The notes beneath the pieces were generated by a model. It made no database searches. It was not told where the DNA came from and was given only the letters and a program-made list of their open reading frames with translations. A program made the position numbers and the translations under genes. Of a stretch of 64,000 nucleotides of DNA, positions 4,318-40,576 are shown piece after piece. Within the stretch, counting starts at the first letter, position 1, and every line of letters begins with the position of its first letter. This DNA comes from a virus: positions 1 through 64,000 of the IMG/VR virus record IMGVR_UViG_3300017917_003843. One strand, given 5' to 3'.

Positions 4318-5445
4318 TTAATTAAATCTAACACTCATTACGTGTACTGAGCCGCTATATTCTGTATACCCAGTTCCGGACCCACCAAATTGTGTAGGTA
4401 CTGTTGTTGTACCTCCTGTTGGCCAATTTCCCAAAACAACTCTATTAACAGCTGTAACAAATGCACTTCCCGAAATAGTAGCTGTTCTATTATTAGTTAA
4501 TGTTTGTATTGTTCTATAGAATGGACCACTACTGTTCATTATTAAAAAATATCTATTTGCTGGTATTGTAACTGAGTTGTTGATACTAGATGAATTAAAT
4601 CTACCTGCAGTATAACTAAATGAAGTAGAATTTGTTATTTGGGTTACAGCACCAAAACTACCTATTGAATCATTAACAGATGATACAGAAGCATACCATG
4701 CCCATGAGTTAGTACCATTTTGGGTTGTATTTAATCCAATATTAAATGAACCTGTAGATAATACTACTTGTTGATGTGCATAGAATAATTGCCAACACCC
4801 ATTGTTTGAATTAAATGCTACAGATGATGTTACCCCACTTTGAGCAGTATAGGCATCAAAAAATGTTCCTTTAGTATAATCAAATACAGAACCTGTTGCA
4901 GGTACTACAGGAACTGTTGGTGTAGGGGTTAAAGTAGGTGTTATAGACGGTGTAACAGATATTGTACGTGTTATAGACGGTGTAACAGATATAGTTGGTG
5001 TTATAGACGGTGTAACAGATATAGTTGGTGTTACAGTTCTAGTAACAGATGGTGTAACGGATGGTGTACGAGATGTAGATAATGTAATAGATGGTGTACG
5101 AGATACAGACGGTGTATTAGATGGATTAACTGGGCTTACTGTTATTGATGGAGTAATAGAAGGTGTTATACTAATACTTGGTGTAATTGATATACTTGGG
5201 GTTCTACTAATACTTATTGATGGGGTAACACTAACACTAGGAGTATTTGAAATAGAAATACTTGGTGTGTTTGAAATACTAACACTAGGTGTAAATGAAA
5301 TACTAGGTGTTACACTAATAGTAATACTTGGAGTAATAGAAGGTGTAGCTGTAAGGAAGGGTGTTAAACTAATAGATGGTGTAATAATGGGTACAATAGA
5401 TCCATTAGGTATTAGTCTAAATCCATTTGAAAATGATATTGCCAT
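4318..5445 (-). CDS. PSIT-repeat fibre/decoration protein with C-terminal globular domain
   Basis: 375 aa. After a short N-terminus (MAISFSNGFRLIPNG), residues about 20-180 are an uninterrupted low-complexity array of P-S-[IV]-[ST] and T-P-S-[IV]-[ST] units. The C-terminal 190 residues are non-repetitive, rich in S, T, N and aromatics, and probably a beta-rich head domain. The gene starts 10 nt after the stop of the neighbouring fibre gene, so the two are probably co-transcribed. I infer a stiff linker or stalk carrying a binding domain. Two more proteins with the same repeat lie at 37037-37774 and 37802-40576. Confidence 0.75.
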   Translation of the reverse strand: MAISFSNGFRLIPNGSIVPIITPSISLTPFLTATPSITPSITISVTPSISFTPSVSISNTPSISISNTPSVSVTPSISISRTPSISITPSISITPSITPSITVSPVNPSNTPSVSRTPSITLSTSRTPSVTPSVTRTVTPTISVTPSITPTISVTPSITRTISVTPSITPTLTPTPTVPVVPATGSVFDYTKGTFFDAYTAQSGVTSSVAFNSNNGCWQLFYAHQQVVLSTGSFNIGLNTTQNGTNSWAWYASVSSVNDSIGSFGAVTQITNSTSFSYTAGRFNSSSINNSVTIPANRYFLIMNSSGPFYRTIQTLTNNRTATISGSAFVTAVNRVVLGNWPTGGTTTVPTQFGGSGTGYTEYSGSVHVMSVRFN

Positions 5446-5454
5446 AACTTCGTA

Positions 5455-7419
5455 TTAATAAAATCCACCATCAATTAAGGTTTCTAAAGCAGTTAAACGA
5501 TAATTTACTGAACTGCTAAACGCAGTAACATTTCCAATACCTACAATAGAACCACTGATTACACCAGGTGCTTCAACAAATATACCTGATCCACTATTTA
5601 AGAATAATGAACTACTATCTAAAAGATAAACATTACTATCTATAATTCCAACAGGACCATTAAAAGTAGATGAACCTGTTATTTCAAATGAACCTGTTAC
5701 TTCTAATTTTTGACGTAAAGGACTAACATACGAAGCTGTTAGAGCATTATTAGTATTAGTTGCTTGAGAAGCACTTACTGCATAACTCGCAGTACCAAAT
5801 AATGAACCAGTAATACCATTGTTTACTCTTAGTATATTACTGATGTTTAATGAACCTGTTAATTCATGTTGATTATTTGGATTTATTAATAATTTTCTAT
5901 TAGTATCAACATTAAACCCACCAGCAAATATTCCTACTGTATTATTAGATGCATTACCTATATTTATTTTGTTACCAGTAGAGTATAAATAAGCATCATT
6001 AGCACTACCAACACCGTTTCCGTTATCAATATAATTTTCATTATTGATACCCATATTAACGTAATTGGTAAGCTCAGTACCATTATTTGCCGTAGCAACA
6101 ACGTCTGATGAAGCACTTACACCTTGATTGGTATTTTGAATATTTAATTGTAAGTAATTATCTAAATTACCTTTACCGGATATTACATTAAAGGATGATG
6201 TTGATGGTTGCCAAACATATAATGCTTCAGGAGCAGCAGTAGTTACACCATTTTGATTAATAGCAACACTAAATCCATTATCTACTTGATATATAGCACT
6301 ATCTGATAATACTTGAGATGAACTAAAGTATGGAATATGTGTAGCAGTACCTCGTAAATTATTTAATGAACCACTAAAGGATCCAGTAATAGTACCATTA
6401 AATGAACCACTAAATGAACCATTAAATGATCCAGTATTAAACGAACTACTAAATGCTAGAAATGAACTTGATAATATACCAATACTAGAGCTATTAGCAA
6501 GTATACGAGAATTAAATGAAGCAGATGTATTAATAAAATCAATACCATTTACTGCAAGTGAACCTGTTATTTTAACTGAACCAGTAAATATTTGAGTATT
6601 ACTTAGATCATTTCCAAATACGTTAGAACCGCTTGAATATAATACACTTGATGTAATAATTTGTGCAACAATTGTTTGGGCAGTTAATGTACCCGCTACC
6701 TTAAAATTATCAGCATAAGATGATGTTGCAGCATATGAAGCACTGTTAGTATTATCTACATTAAAACTAGCAGATGTATTATCACCATAGAAAAATGTGA
6801 TAACATCTGTATTTGTTTGATATGAAGCACTAACTAAAGTATTTACGTGTGAGGCAGTACCAAATAGTGAACTTGTAATTCCGTTAGTTACATTTAATGT
6901 TCCACTAATTATTTGGTTTCCTCTAAAAGTATTTGAACCAGTAGTTGCATATGAACCTGTAATATTAGTTATATTAATTATACGGTTATCAAATGACGCA
7001 CTAGCAACTAAAAATGAACTTGATAATATACCAATAGAAGAACTATTAGTAAGTATTCGTGTATTAAATGATGAACTATCATTTAAATAACTACCACTAA
7101 ATGTTGAAAATGAACTTGATAATATACCAATAGAAGAACTATTGGTTAATATTCTAATATCGAATGATGCAGAAGCAATATAATATGATGCTGTAAATGC
7201 ATTAAATGAAGCAGTACTAACAAAACTACTAGTAAATAAATCAGGATTGCCTGGTTCTCCTTTAGCTCCTTGAGGGCCAGGTGTAATAATTTCTACTACA
7301 TTAGTAATCTGTTGAGGGACAACAAGAATATTACCGAAGTCTTGATTAACATCGATAGTATTTATTGTGTTCTCTACGTTAACACTATTAAAATTGGTAT
7401 TAACATCTATTTGACTCAT
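5455..7419 (-). CDS. Tail fibre protein with collagen-like segment and shared repeat cassettes
   Basis: 654 aa. The N-terminal segment (SQIDVNTNFNSVNVENT) is followed near residue 50 by a short collagen-like run, GPQGAKGEPGNP. Then come cassettes of RIL-x-NSSSIGILSSSF and VAGTLTAQTIVAQIITSS ... FTGSVKITGSLAVNG. The same cassettes are in the giant fibre gene to the left. The C-terminal 150 residues are less repetitive. The start overlaps the stop of the 7419-7793 gene as TAATG, which suggests translational coupling. Inferred role: a side or short tail fibre. Confidence 0.8.
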   Translation of the reverse strand: MSQIDVNTNFNSVNVENTINTIDVNQDFGNILVVPQQITNVVEIITPGPQGAKGEPGNPDLFTSSFVSTASFNAFTASYYIASASFDIRILTNSSSIGILSSSFSTFSGSYLNDSSSFNTRILTNSSSIGILSSSFLVASASFDNRIINITNITGSYATTGSNTFRGNQIISGTLNVTNGITSSLFGTASHVNTLVSASYQTNTDVITFFYGDNTSASFNVDNTNSASYAATSSYADNFKVAGTLTAQTIVAQIITSSVLYSSGSNVFGNDLSNTQIFTGSVKITGSLAVNGIDFINTSASFNSRILANSSSIGILSSSFLAFSSSFNTGSFNGSFSGSFNGTITGSFSGSLNNLRGTATHIPYFSSSQVLSDSAIYQVDNGFSVAINQNGVTTAAPEALYVWQPSTSSFNVISGKGNLDNYLQLNIQNTNQGVSASSDVVATANNGTELTNYVNMGINNENYIDNGNGVGSANDAYLYSTGNKINIGNASNNTVGIFAGGFNVDTNRKLLINPNNQHELTGSLNISNILRVNNGITGSLFGTASYAVSASQATNTNNALTASYVSPLRQKLEVTGSFEITGSSTFNGPVGIIDSNVYLLDSSSLFLNSGSGIFVEAPGVISGSIVGIGNVTAFSSSVNYRLTALETLIDGGFY

Positions 7420-13080: not shown

Positions 13081-13722
13081 TTATTCAGGTAATTCGCACG
13101 GGCAAAAACCAGCTCTATTACACAAAATTTCAGTGATTAAGTCGTTTATTTTATTTAATTTTTCGTTACTAGCAGAAGGAGATTGAACATAATTAAGTGA
13201 TTCATTAACTATTTCCATAAATGCACCTTGAGTAGATGGTGTTGAAACAAAATCCCAACATAATAATTCAAAATCATCTTGTACTTCAACAGTTTCACCT
13301 AATTGCTTAACTGAACCCATACCACGAGATGAAATACCAACTGTAATACCAGCAATTAATAATGCTTTTAAAATATTACCTGAAGGTGTTGGAAGAATTT
13401 CAATTTTAGCTATTACATCATCACCATCCCACCATACATCTTTAACATTATGACAAACATTTTTTAAATTAATGATTGCTGATTCGGGGTGATCTAATTC
13501 GCCTAATGCTCTATTTTCTTTAATAAAGGTATTTTTATATTTTTGAACTTCACGTTCAAGTACCTCTTTAGGATATACACGACCATTACCGTTTTTAGCA
13601 TCAGCACGTTGTACTACACCTTGAACAATTAAACGACCATCATTAGTTTTTACAGACTCTTGTAATAACTGTGGCGTTAGGGAGAAGGTTGAAATGCGTT
13701 CTATTAATAATTCTTTAGCCAT
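13081..13722 (-). CDS. 21: Prohead protease, gp21-like (S78 family)
   Basis: 213 aa, like T4 gp21 (212). The catalytic histidine is in GELDHPES (about residue 100) and the serine in GISSRGMGSV (about residue 152). NGNGRVYPKEVLEREV and DDVIAKIEILPTPSGN are family hallmarks. The protease cuts scaffold, capsid and internal proteins after L/I-x-E, then destroys itself. Its N-terminus has ELLIERIS and LLQES, possible self-cleavage sites. Its ATG overlaps the TAA of the 13722-13964 frame (TAATG). Confidence 0.95.
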   Translation of the reverse strand: MAKELLIERISTFSLTPQLLQESVKTNDGRLIVQGVVQRADAKNGNGRVYPKEVLEREVQKYKNTFIKENRALGELDHPESAIINLKNVCHNVKDVWWDGDDVIAKIEILPTPSGNILKALLIAGITVGISSRGMGSVKQLGETVEVQDDFELLCWDFVSTPSTQGAFMEIVNESLNYVQSPSASNEKLNKINDLITEILCNRAGFCPCELPE

Positions 13723-13964
13723 TATTTTATATTATATCCTAATTTTTTTAATTTTATAGTAACACCTTTTATTATTTTATCAATTTCTTGACTATCATAG
13801 TAATGTTTTATTTTATTTTGATAATTCTTTAATGTAGCTTGAATATCTTTTGCATCAAATTCTAAATCTAAATCATTTGATCGTATTTGGTCAATCAAAT
13901 CACCTGTAATAACATCAATGATATCTTCTATAGCAGATGTTTGAACTTTAACTAGTTCAAAGTT
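13722..13964 (-). CDS. C-terminal extension reached by -1 frameshift (no start codon of its own)
   Basis: An 80-codon open frame (NFELVKVQTSAIEDIIDV ... LKKLGYNIK) ends in a TAA that overlaps the protease ATG. It contains no ATG or GTG; one TTG lies about 24 codons in. Upstream it is closed by a TGA about eight codons before the A10 run. It joins the 13952-14698 frame if one base is re-read at A-AAA-AAC. I infer programmed -1 frameshifting, polymerase slippage, or a one-base assembly error in the homopolymer. The fused product would be about 326 aa. Confidence 0.6.
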   Translation of the reverse strand, partial: NFELVKVQTSAIEDIIDVITGDLIDQIRSNDLDLEFDAKDIQATLKNYQNKIKHYYDSQEIDKIIKGVTIKLKKLGYNIK

Positions 13965-14698
13965 TTTTTTTTGTCTAAGAACTCACGAACTATTTTTTTA
14001 ATAGATTCTCTAAGTATTTCTTCTGTAGATGGTTTTTTAGTTTCTTGAAGAGAATCTAACAATTTATCATATAATAAATCCCAATACTTATTATAAAGTT
14101 CATCCAATTCAATGTCTGTTAATGAAGCACCGTCTTCAAATTCAGCATACGCTACGTAAGCATCAGAAAAATCAGGATAATCTGAGGTATCTACTCCATC
14201 AAATTCAATAGATGAAATATCAACTGGTTTTCCACTGATTATATATTGAAAACCTTGTTCTTCTTTTAACATTTGTTCTGTAGCTTTAGCAACCTTAACC
14301 TTTTTCATTTCATTTTTAGTGTCATGAGGTTTGATTGGTTCTAAACCATCAGATTTATCTTTAACTTTTTTATTTGTCTTAAGTTTAGGAATATCTTTTA
14401 CTGTAGTAGCAGGGTAAATACCATCTTGTTCATCTACTTCAGGAGATTGTTCAACTTTTTTGTATTTAGTATCTGCACTTGGAGTAGGTGATTCATATGA
14501 TGGGTCTTTATCGGGAGTTCCTTTAACAGCATCTCCTTCATTTAACAAACCTCTATTTTTAAGGATTTTCACTGAATCCTCAAATGAATTATGGTTAGTT
14601 ACGTGGTTAGGAAACATCATTCGTGCATTACGCAAGAATTGATATTTATCTATTTTACCTTCTTTTAGATCTTGATATTGTAGGCTAATACTTTTCAT
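13952..14698 (-). CDS. Prohead core-region protein, probably N-terminal part of a frameshift product
   Basis: 248 aa to its own TAG. The N-terminal block (LKEGKIDKYQFLRNARMMFP ... ILKNRGLLNEGDAV) is common next to gp21 in T4-type phages. The middle is lysine-rich and disordered. The C-terminal block (GVDTSDYPDFSDAYVAYAEF ... LTDIELDELYNKYWDLLYDKL) is also conserved, and the end SIKKIVREFLDKK is an amphipathic helix. LLNE before G is a possible gp21 site. A core or scaffold-associated role is inferred from position. The A10 run lies near its 3' end. Confidence 0.7.
   Translation of the reverse strand: MKSISLQYQDLKEGKIDKYQFLRNARMMFPNHVTNHNSFEDSVKILKNRGLLNEGDAVKGTPDKDPSYESPTPSADTKYKKVEQSPEVDEQDGIYPATTVKDIPKLKTNKKVKDKSDGLEPIKPHDTKNEMKKVKVAKATEQMLKEEQGFQYIISGKPVDISSIEFDGVDTSDYPDFSDAYVAYAEFEDGASLTDIELDELYNKYWDLLYDKLLDSLQETKKPSTEEILRESIKKIVREFLDKKKTLN
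13962..13972 (-). promoter_or_regulatory. Slippery A10-C site (candidate -1 frameshift)
   Basis: On the minus strand, ten A then C, which includes the classic heptamer A-AAA-AAC, four codons before the TAG of the upstream frame. No strong downstream hairpin or pseudoknot is obvious by eye. Confidence 0.5.
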
Positions 14699-15213
14699 TA
14701 TTCTTCAGTGTTTTCTTCTTCTTTTACTTCTTCACCAGTTAATTTTGTTAAGATATCTGATAGGCTATCTTTTATTTCATCTGTATCAAATACAACAGCG
14801 AACGATTTTGGATTTTTCTTATAATATTGTTCTGTTTCCTTTTTAGCTTTAGGTAAAGCAGACTTAATTTTTGTTACTAAATCAATCAATTCAGAAAATG
14901 ACTCAACACGAGATTTATGTAATTCTTCTCTTTCTTCAACTTTTTTAGGATCTTCTTCTTTTTCTTCAGCTAAAGATGCAAGAATATCTTCTAATTGTAA
15001 AGATTCTTGTTCAGTTTTTAATACTTTATCATAAGCTTCTTTCATGCTACGATATCCTTTCATCAATTCCTCAATGTCAGTTTTATGAGCACTACCTACA
15101 CCAGTACCATCTGCTTTTTTAGCTTCAGATACACGATATTTTATTTCTTCAGCTAAAGTATCTAATTTAGCTTTAAGTTCCTCTTTACTTAGTTTTTTTC
15201 TATCGTTGTTCAT
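14698..15213 (-). CDS. Coiled-coil head-cluster protein
   Basis: 171 aa, highly charged and predicted almost fully helical (LSKEELKAKLDTLAEEIKYRV; QLEDILASLAEEKEEDPKKVEE). The acidic tail ends KEEENTEE. The composition resembles scaffold/core proteins such as gp67 or gp68, but no homology is claimed. Its stop overlaps the next gene's ATG by one base, and its start overlaps the upstream gene by 4 nt. All genes from the portal to the protease are tightly coupled. Confidence 0.6.
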   Translation of the reverse strand: MNNDRKKLSKEELKAKLDTLAEEIKYRVSEAKKADGTGVGSAHKTDIEELMKGYRSMKEAYDKVLKTEQESLQLEDILASLAEEKEEDPKKVEEREELHKSRVESFSELIDLVTKIKSALPKAKKETEQYYKKNPKSFAVVFDTDEIKDSLSDILTKLTGEEVKEEENTEE

Positions 15214-37037: not shown

Positions 37038-37774
37038 TAACAAGTAAATCCGGTCAATACTACTGCTGGGTTGGTACAACTTACAATACATGCTGATCCA
37101 ATTGGTTCTGGATCATTTCCACCAATATATGTACTACCTGTACCTATGTTACTCCCAGCAGGTACGGTTACAGATACATTAACTACACCAAAAGAAACAG
37201 TCACATTTATTGAAAATGTGGAATTTATAGATACATTACTTGAAAGTGTAATATAACCATCAACATAAACATTAGAACCAAATCCTGAAAAACCACCACC
37301 CACAACTGATACTGAAACTGGAGGGAGAGTAGATGGGGTTAGAGATGGTGTTCTACTAGGTGTTGGACTAGGAGAACCTCCACCTGGGGTTAGAGATGGT
37401 GTTCTACTAGGAGTTATACTAATAGAGGGTGTTAATGAAGCACCTGGTGTTTTAGATATTGTTATAGAAGGTGTTATACTAGGACTAACTGTTATAGAAG
37501 GTGTTACACTTGGAGTTACACTAACACTATTAGTAACAGTTGGAGTAGGTGTTGGAAATGGTAAATTTTCCTCGGTAACACACCCGTAAGCTACATTACT
37601 TATAACAACCGATGAAGACGGTATCCCATTTGGAAAACTAATAAAATATCCGGATTCTAACTGTGTTTTTGTAACATTAGCAGCATAAAGAGTCAACCCA
37701 CTACTTCCAGATAAATAAACATTAAATGGACCAGGAGTATTTCCTTCAATATAACTTATGGTGTATTCGGGCAT
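37037..37774 (-). CDS. PSIT-repeat tail protein (short)
   Basis: 245 aa. Residues 1-75 form a beta-type N-terminal domain (PEYTISYIEGNTPGPFNVYL; GCVTEENLPFPTPTPT). Residues about 78-155 are P-S-[IV]-T repeats, with TPGASLTPSISITPSRTPSL and a small GGG break. The C-terminal 90 residues are beta-rich (VYVDGYITLSSNVSINSTFS). I infer a decoration or fibre tip on a repeat linker. A late-type motif lies 12 nt upstream. Confidence 0.7.
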   Translation of the reverse strand: MPEYTISYIEGNTPGPFNVYLSGSSGLTLYAANVTKTQLESGYFISFPNGIPSSSVVISNVAYGCVTEENLPFPTPTPTVTNSVSVTPSVTPSITVSPSITPSITISKTPGASLTPSISITPSRTPSLTPGGGSPSPTPSRTPSLTPSTLPPVSVSVVGGGFSGFGSNVYVDGYITLSSNVSINSTFSINVTVSFGVVNVSVTVPAGSNIGTGSTYIGGNDPEPIGSACIVSCTNPAVVLTGFTC

Positions 37775-37786
37775 ATACTATTTTAA

Positions 37787-37795
37787 TATAAATAT
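37787..37795 (-). promoter_or_regulatory. Late-type promoter motif upstream of the 37037-37774 gene
   Basis: Coding strand reads ATATTTATA, 12 nt before the ATG. Confidence 0.5.
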
Positions 37796-37801
37796 TCTAT
37801 T

Positions 37802-40576
37802 TTAATAAGCATTACAAGCATCTTCACAACTTGATGATTGTGTGTATATATAAGGATCAACATCTATATCATAAGATGGACCTGATGTTGACCCAAAAGT
37901 TTGATATGATTTACTACCATCAGAATACCAAGACCCGTTACTTAAAGCATTGGTAGAACGTAATATAACTGTTAATCCATCATCTGTACAAGGATTTCCA
38001 CCATTACAAGTACTACGATAAGCCTGAGTATAATAATAACCAGGAGGTGATGTTGATGGTGTTACACTAGCGGCCGGTGTATTACTTACTGCGGGTGTTG
38101 GACTAACAGATGGTGTATTACTTGCTGCAGGTGTTGGTGAAGGTGTAGCCGATGGTGGTGTACAACTTGTTGCTGTAATTGAATTTAAAGTAAATGAGTG
38201 AGCTTGAGTAAATGTTGTTTCAACATATTTTCTAGTTCCAAAATCACCATTAACAAAAGCATAAATACCCGAACCAATAGTACTACTATAATCAGTAGTA
38301 GTTCTATAAACTACACCATCGAATGCATTACAGTTAACATTAGTATCATATACTAAGTAATAATAATAAGTTACTGATGGTGTTACAGTAGGTGTTGGTG
38401 TTACACTACTAGCTGGAGTAACAGAAATACTAGGTGTATTACTTATACTAACAGATGGTGTTACACTAATACTAGGAGTTACACTAATACTTGGAGTATT
38501 ACTTATACTAACAGATGGCGTTACACTAATACTAGGTGTATTAGAGATACTAATAGATGGTGTTGGTGATGGTGATGGGTTTATAGGAATACAAGATGTA
38601 TTACTTATATTAGTATAAACAAAAGTATTATTAGTAGAATTATAAGTAAAATATCCTACTTTATCATAAACTCCAACAGCTGAACAAACTTTAGATATAG
38701 TATCTGTATAACCTGCTTCAGAAGATGATACTCCAAAATTTACTCCATTATTAGCTGGTATATCTATTAAACTTTGGGTTTTATTAGAATTACGTACTGT
38801 TACACTTCCTGTTTGAAGAGTTGATAACCTAGCACCATGTAAGTCAAAAGTAAATATTGTAGTTGAAGGATAATCAGTTCTCAATAATTGAGTGTTAATA
38901 CCAAATCTATAAAATCTAGTAGCAGGTGATACTAAAACAGAAGCAGAATACCCAGCAATCATATAACTAGCAGTTGCTGATAGTGAACTTGTTGGTATAT
39001 GACTTGAAGCACTAATAGGAGATATCATAATATATGATCCACTAGCTTCAACTCCACTAGTTGCTTGATATAATCTAAAATCAAAAGTATCTTCACCAGT
39101 ATCACTATATATTACGTCAATAAATGAAGATCCTATAAGAGGAGGAGTAACAGATGGTGTTATACTTGGTGTTGTACTAATAGTAGGTGTTATACTAATA
39201 CTAGGTGTATTACTTATACTAATAGACGGTGTTACGCTAATACTTGGAGTATTAGAAATACTAATACTAGGAGTTACACTAATACTTGGAGTATTACTTA
39301 TACTAACAGATGGTGTAATTGAAATACTTGGGGTATTAGAGATACTAATAGATGGTGTTGTACTAACACCTGGTGTATTAGAAATACTAATACTAGGAGT
39401 TACACTAGGAGTAATAGAAGGTGTTACACTAACACTAGGTGTTTTACTAATTGAAATACTTGGACTAATACTTGGGCTAATAGTAATACTAGGTGTTAAA
39501 CTTGCTCCTGGTGTTTTACTTATACTAATAGTAGGTGTAACGCTTGGAGTAATTGAAATACTAGGTGTTATACTAGGACTAATTGAAATACTAGGTGTAA
39601 CAGATGGTGTTACACTTGGTGTAACAGAAACACTAATAGATGGTGTTATACTAACCGTTGGTAAAAAAGTAGCAAGAGTTGCTTCAAATTCACAATCAGG
39701 ATCAGTTACATTTACAGTTATTCTAGCTATATTACTTCTTAAATTTCCACAATAAGAACCTGTTACTAAAAATGAATAATCAGTTGTATAAGTACCTACA
39801 CCTAATCCACTAAAGGACATTGAAATTGTATTATTAGATCCTGTTCTAAAAAAATCACCAGTACTATTAGATAAACTAATAGATTGATTAACTAAGGTAT
39901 TTCCTCGTAAATCATCATTAGTAAGAGGTGATATAGATAAAGTAACTGGATTATTATAGTTACTTCTTATAATTGTAATAGTATCATCATAAGCAACTGG
40001 GGGTAAAGGAAATATTGATTGATAATCAGTATTAGTAATTACAATTATACCTTCAGGATAAAATATATTTCCTACGTGAGTTGTATTATCATATACATTT
40101 CCTTTTCCATCATCTCTTAAATTATAAGTAGATGAACTCATTTGAAGACTATAAGGTAAAACTCTTTGCCCGTATATATTTGGAGAAATAGAAATAACCT
40201 TAATAGTAGCATTAGATGCTGTTGGGAAATAAGGAATAAACGCTGGGTCGTTATTAAAATTAAAATATGAAGCTGTAGGTCTTAACCCACTAGCTGATTC
40301 ATAATATAAGGAAGAAGCCAATGACGCTGTGGATAAACTACCCGAGTATTGGTGATAAAATAATTGATTTATCTGAGTGTATGTTAATCTATCATAACGT
40401 CCATTAGTTATTGCTTCTCCTCCAGGAGTAAATGATCCTGTTAAATTAATACCATTATATACATTAATATAAGAATCATCTACGGGAAGTGGGCAATAGT
40501 TAAAATTCCAACTTTTATTTGCTACAACAGGTACTGTTATAACATCCGAAGATTTTAACTTTTTGAATGATCCCAT
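37802..40576 (-). CDS. Large PSIT-repeat fibre/adhesin protein
   Basis: 924 aa. Domains in order: an N-terminal globular part (about 1-180), a cadherin/Ig-like stretch (VAYDDTITIIRSNYNNPVTL; LSISPLTNDDLRGNTL) to about 300, then P-S-[IV]-[ST] arrays at about 310-480, 680-735 and 800-850. The arrays separate beta domains that contain TYYYYLVYDTNVNCNAFDGV and, at the end, a cysteine-rich motif CNGGNPCTDDGLTVILR. The layout is of beads on stiff linkers. Receptor binding is inferred from this layout and its place among tail genes. Confidence 0.75.
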   Translation of the reverse strand: MGSFKKLKSSDVITVPVVANKSWNFNYCPLPVDDSYINVYNGINLTGSFTPGGEAITNGRYDRLTYTQINQLFYHQYSGSLSTASLASSLYYESASGLRPTASYFNFNNDPAFIPYFPTASNATIKVISISPNIYGQRVLPYSLQMSSSTYNLRDDGKGNVYDNTTHVGNIFYPEGIIVITNTDYQSIFPLPPVAYDDTITIIRSNYNNPVTLSISPLTNDDLRGNTLVNQSISLSNSTGDFFRTGSNNTISMSFSGLGVGTYTTDYSFLVTGSYCGNLRSNIARITVNVTDPDCEFEATLATFLPTVSITPSISVSVTPSVTPSVTPSISISPSITPSISITPSVTPTISISKTPGASLTPSITISPSISPSISISKTPSVSVTPSITPSVTPSISISNTPGVSTTPSISISNTPSISITPSVSISNTPSISVTPSISISNTPSISVTPSISISNTPSISITPTISTTPSITPSVTPPLIGSSFIDVIYSDTGEDTFDFRLYQATSGVEASGSYIMISPISASSHIPTSSLSATASYMIAGYSASVLVSPATRFYRFGINTQLLRTDYPSTTIFTFDLHGARLSTLQTGSVTVRNSNKTQSLIDIPANNGVNFGVSSSEAGYTDTISKVCSAVGVYDKVGYFTYNSTNNTFVYTNISNTSCIPINPSPSPTPSISISNTPSISVTPSVSISNTPSISVTPSISVTPSVSISNTPSISVTPASSVTPTPTVTPSVTYYYYLVYDTNVNCNAFDGVVYRTTTDYSSTIGSGIYAFVNGDFGTRKYVETTFTQAHSFTLNSITATSCTPPSATPSPTPAASNTPSVSPTPAVSNTPAASVTPSTSPPGYYYTQAYRSTCNGGNPCTDDGLTVILRSTNALSNGSWYSDGSKSYQTFGSTSGPSYDIDVDPYIYTQSSSCEDACNAY

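Follow-up and report, generated by a model that had tools for sequence, protein, structure and literature searches.

A phage head-core gene with a frame break at a run of ten adenines in a metagenomic T4-like virus record

The question raised by this locus is whether two reading frames that meet at a long run of adenines, just upstream of a prohead protease gene, are linked by programmed frameshifting, are two separate genes, or are the two parts of a single gene whose frame is broken. An earlier note had proposed a -1 frameshift joining the two frames, with the caveat that an indel must be excluded. The window analysed here is a stretch of 64,000 nucleotides from an IMG/VR virus record of 68,439 bases.

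The locus and its two frames

The minus strand of the window carries T4-like head genes: terminase, portal (phrog_213), a set of small genes, an S77 prohead protease, a scaffold-like gene and gp23. The major capsid protein gp23 (PF07068, E 3e-79) has its best cultured match in Flavobacterium phage immuto (53% identity over the capsid protein), and its presence together with the gp21-type S77 protease near the split gene places the latter in a T4-like head module. The first frame of the split gene lies between a gene at 14698-15213 and the protease, which is the next gene downstream (Table 1). With portal-side genes on one side and the protease on the other, it occupies the position of T4 gp67/gp68. 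In its product, a conserved N-terminal part is followed by a middle module, which is shuffled, and at the end by an amphipathic helix (EILRESIKKIVREFLDKKK); the protein gave no match in PHROGs and only a sub-cutoff match in Pfam. The middle of this protein (IEFDGVDTSDYPDFSDAYVAYAEFEDG, window 14010-14250, minus strand) has a 55% match to an otherwise different gene (L006:3914-5182), which adjoins a terminase. To judge from such sequence matches, the middle modules of the head-core gene are apparently shuffled between relatives.

Table 1. Features at the split gene and the gene downstream of it (window positions)
Feature	Position	Strand	Remarks
Prohead core protein serine protease (gp21 / Peptidase_S77), 213 aa	13081..13722	-	phrog_207 E 9e-59; PF03420 E 8e-31
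-1 frame continuation, 80 codons + TAA, C-terminal domain	13722..13964	-	homologous to the in-frame C-terminal domain of relatives
Perfect 8-bp hairpin TTTGAACT-AGTTAA-AGTTCAAA, just 3' of the A run	13940..13961	-	-6.8 kcal/mol alone
Frame-0 ORF, 248 aa, stop TAG	13952..14698	-	residues 1-146 with 68-80% identity to relatives
A10 run (T10 on the plus strand)	13963..13972	-	in-phase heptamer A-AAA-AAA at 13970-13964

The first frame ends in ...REFLD KKK TLN, its stop lying four codons past the A10 run, as the earlier note had described. In the -1 frame the sequence reads KKK-NFELV...GYNIK over 80 codons (13964-13725) to a TAA at 13724-13722, the last A of which is also the A of the protease ATG (a 1-nt overlap). 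The sequence likewise agrees with the earlier description of this second frame as an 80-codon ORF devoid of ATG and GTG; its single TTG is codon 23, and a start there would give a protein of 58 aa. Two details of that description need correction. The zero-frame codons across the run are GAC AAA AAA AAA ACT, and the slippery heptamer named previously, A-AAA-AAC, is out of phase, the in-phase heptamer being A-AAA-AAA. The in-frame TGA upstream, placed at eight codons, lies 13 nt (about 4 codons) before the run, at 13985-13983. The frames join whenever the length of the A run equals 2 modulo 3; the record has A10, and one additional A joins both. No other homopolymer in the window is as long as this run, and no other of at least nine bases lies inside a gene there. 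Runs of nine or more A's are no more numerous in the window than expected from shuffling, and in this genome of 30% GC the A10 run in itself is thus unremarkable.

The protein domain encoded by the second frame has homologues (tblastn E 7e-18 to 1e-6), and the base composition of the frame is coding-like, with GC contents by codon position of 40/17/7% as compared with 47/29/16% in the first frame. This combination of homology and composition is not chance, and it bears out the earlier impression of natural-looking protein sequence.

Homologues and the distribution of the break

Relatives were obtained by a protease-led search, and a further profile search raised the homologues to about 22 distinct sequences. 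A scan of genome contigs for relatives found none, and a peptide search with the extension alone returned no match because the extension evolves fast. In L003, L007, L011-13 and L018, tblastn matched the 80-aa extension as well as the N-terminal part, at one locus and in one frame, and these loci read as single uninterrupted ORFs of 355-478 aa. L020, L042 and L009/L010 align likewise, such that the N-terminal part and the C-terminal domain occur in one ORF in seven distinct relatives (L011-13, L003, L018, L007, L042, L020 and L009/10). More specifically, phages with N-termini or proteases 68-84% identical to those of the window carry the C-terminal domain (at most about 48% identity) within a single uninterrupted ORF. 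The fused ORFs end in a motif of the GYNIK/GYNLK type, in most cases with the same TAATG junction to the protease as in the window. When aligned to them, the final helix of the first frame (ILRESIKKIVREFLDK) matches the helix just before their C-terminal domain, with the A run located in the variable linker that separates this helix from the domain. The extension sequences are too variable in alignment for a pattern search. An AlphaFold model of the in-frame relative L013 has a mean pLDDT of 53, and only its N-terminal helices and C-terminal domain (three helices, pLDDT about 60-76) are moderately confident. These alignments show that the two frames belong to one gene, predicted to encode a head-core-region protein and lying immediately before the prohead protease gene in this T4-like phage. 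Of the frameshift proposal, the joining of both frames into one protein is upheld by homology, but the programmed shift is not, the homologues being unbroken.

The comparison with homologues, which the earlier note had named as a check, revealed neither a split gene nor a second part with its own start; both parts lie in one frame. It is extremely improbable that the second frame is a separate gene starting at TTG or another rare codon. One TTG is present, but its use would drop the first 22 codons, and the relatives encode the C-terminal domain only as the C-terminal part of a fused gene, none of the homologues possessing an independent start for it. On these grounds, and in the absence of ATG or GTG, a second gene with its own start was rejected.

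Other homologues, including L002, L015, L021, L022 and L023, do not have the C-terminal domain, and in them the gene terminates directly behind the same helix. Because the gene ends at the helix in one set of relatives and is fused in the other, the short and long products of the window would each resemble a natural protein. A different run, A9 (AGTC-A9-C/G), is kept in frame at codons 138-140 of the homologous gene in L003, L004, L007, L011, L018 and L042; this second run could be a slippage site in its own right.

The break itself is private to this record. As far as read, none of the approximately 22 distinct homologues is broken at the junction, and the complete ones all run unbroken to within a few nt of the protease start. 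None has a long A run at the junction and both parts share one frame, the pattern expected of a private indel and not of a conserved recoding site. Among 132 distinct protease loci, an open frame of at least 50 codons that has no start and ends at the protease start is found in the window only. The ORFs of two long relatives, of 115 and 174 kb, were all compared against the window and covered about 46 kb of it, within which the split gene was the sole colinear frame split. The contig is therefore not generally indel-ridden, and a general proneness to indels was rejected as an explanation. Repeats and paralogues account for the other multi-frame matches in this comparison, most of which lie at 0-7 kb and 37-41 kb. 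Several large genes at 4954-7000 and 37300-39700 of the window have common repeats in different frames, among themselves and with genes of the relatives; these are likely tail-fibre or adhesin-like repeats. The split gene is thus broken within a long homopolymer and otherwise intact in comparison with its in-frame relatives. The earlier caution about an indel was well placed, the break being a private, one-base length mismatch in the A run.

The condition of the extension bears on the age of the break. It is stop-free and 48% identical to that of L013, where pairs of relatives range from 20% to 82%, and it is no more diverged than several of the relatives' extensions are from each other. The protease of the window is an outlier, with 75-83% identity to the relatives as compared with mostly 93-97% among them (L007 excepted). 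An extension that is free of stops, retains coding composition and is 48% identical to that of L013 despite the more distant protease has undergone little or no decay. Such preservation is compatible with a recent indel, with an error and with continued expression alike, and the break is most likely either artefactual or, as its state of preservation suggests, recent.

Explanations for the break

The preferred reading, held at a probability of roughly 0.8, is that of one gene whose frame is broken in this record only by a one-base mismatch in the A run, the break being recent or artefactual and rescued by slippage if the A10 is real. It comprises two options, the weights of which are judgements and not computed values. 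In one, the consensus of the record, or the sampled majority, would be one base off, through a consensus error or a minority-length allele; such an error or length variation at the run is given close to an even chance. Counting against an error are 14 distinct A runs of at least nine inside long frames (window and related loci), 13 of which read through in frame, including an A10 (L211) and an A11 (L217). Such runs are therefore usually assembled correctly, which leaves room for a real A10. An exact-flank search of IMG/VR, from which nearly identical records may be missing, found no other record of the same locus with another run length.

In the other option, a plausible though somewhat doubtful one, the phage truly carries A10 and RNA polymerase would slip on it in an unprogrammed manner. 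Insertion of one base in the transcript, the favoured direction on A runs, would convert A10 to A11 and join the frames, and the long protein would then be made in part, beside a short form resembling the natural gene of sister phages. The run has the features expected for transcriptional slippage, namely an A or T run of about 8-9 or more at which a single-base insertion restores the frame. In reporter tests, bacterial RNA polymerase exhibits no detectable slippage on fewer than 7 T's or fewer than 8 A's (PMC6260861), and slippage on A runs of 8 or more is length-dependent (PMC6260861, PMC5574713). In Citrobacter rodentium, transcriptional slippage on an A11 tract restores tssM1 with an efficiency of about 20-25% (PMC4256274), and Blochmannia has eight genes that are frameshifted at homopolymers and otherwise kept intact (PMC3017870). 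It is unlikely, though conceivable, that a real A10 has turned a single-form head-core gene into a two-product gene, in which slippage, perhaps aided by the hairpin, sets the ratio of a short protein, like that of one sister clade, to a long protein, like that of the other.

Two further explanations also accept the A10 as real. A true truncation, leaving the phage with the short 248-aa protein alone and the 80-codon domain as a recently formed remnant, would parallel the relatives that stop the gene directly past the same helix (L002, L021, L022, L015, L023 and others). However, the C-terminal domain is intact and has no stops, its codon usage is biased, and the conserved GYNIK and the TAATG junction stand at its end, whereas a remnant would soon decay, and the A10 would slip anyway; this explanation is distinctly unlikely. 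Highly unlikely is a selected, programmed -1 ribosomal frameshift at A-AAA-AAA with the hairpin, which would yield short and long head-core proteins in a fixed ratio. Dual head proteins produced by frameshifting are known in other phages (PMC5009743), both products here resemble natural proteins of relatives, the zero frame does contain an in-phase heptamer of the X-XXY-YYZ type, and a perfect 8-bp hairpin that includes the frame-0 TAG lies directly 3'. Ribosomal slippage on A-AAA-AAA is possible if the A10 is real. A hairpin of this kind occurs within 10 nt of about 0.5% of window positions and is thus unlikely to lie there by chance, which counts against the preferred reading; the MFE z for 103 nt is -2.6, and the hairpin was picked out after the fact. 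The usual spacing between heptamer and structure is 5-9 nt. The hairpin, which is the sole candidate stimulator, begins about 2 nt past the in-phase heptamer and is AU-rich, and its short spacing and low stability (-6.8 kcal/mol) make it a poor canonical stimulator; it leaves a weak argument for stimulated frameshifting. No SD-like stimulator was seen upstream of the run, neither the shift site nor a change of frame occurs in any homologue, and the relatives make a single form only. A conserved programmed -1 site is thus unsupported, given some 22 unbroken homologues, a start-less frame in the window only and a sole split in about 46 kb. On the plus strand, the same hairpin followed by T10 (13940-13972) resembles an intrinsic terminator; this was considered, and there is no plus-strand gene nearby.

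Comparison with known systems

Because the homologues show one gene with a private break, the locus is best annotated as one gene with a frame problem and not as a recoding site, and the case shows how frame breaks in metagenomic phage genomes can be judged. If the A10 is real, the locus would offer a natural test of the tolerance of an AT-rich phage for poly-A breaks in a structural gene, one whose short and long forms both occur among relatives.

A homopolymer-interrupted phage head gene, whether real or artefactual, is of a kind already known. In position, between portal and gp21-type protease, and in being helix-rich and without an enzyme domain, the gene is like the prohead core genes at the T4 gp67/gp68 position, but it has no sequence match to the core-protein families in PHROGs or Pfam and is a member by position only. 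As in T7/T3 gene 10 and the major head protein of Lactobacillus phage A2, a head gene would yield a short and a -1-extended product; those frameshifts have been shown experimentally, some with stimulators (PMC5009743), whereas the homologues here are plain single ORFs. The likeness to tssM1 of C. rodentium (A11) is that a long A run is soon followed by a stop, that one more A restores full length, and that a short and a long form are involved. Slippage in tssM1 is supported by Western blot, mass spectrometry and RNA analysis (PMC4256274), whereas the phage gene is known from its sequence, has A10 and has no conserved site in relatives. Comparable, too, are genes of AT-rich endosymbionts that are frameshifted at poly-A runs (Blochmannia vafer, PMC3017870; Buchnera), in which a one-base break in a long A run likewise interrupts a gene that is otherwise intact, conserved and in frame in relatives; in contrast to these, the present case is a phage head gene in a single metagenomic record, and A10 is the run length in that record.
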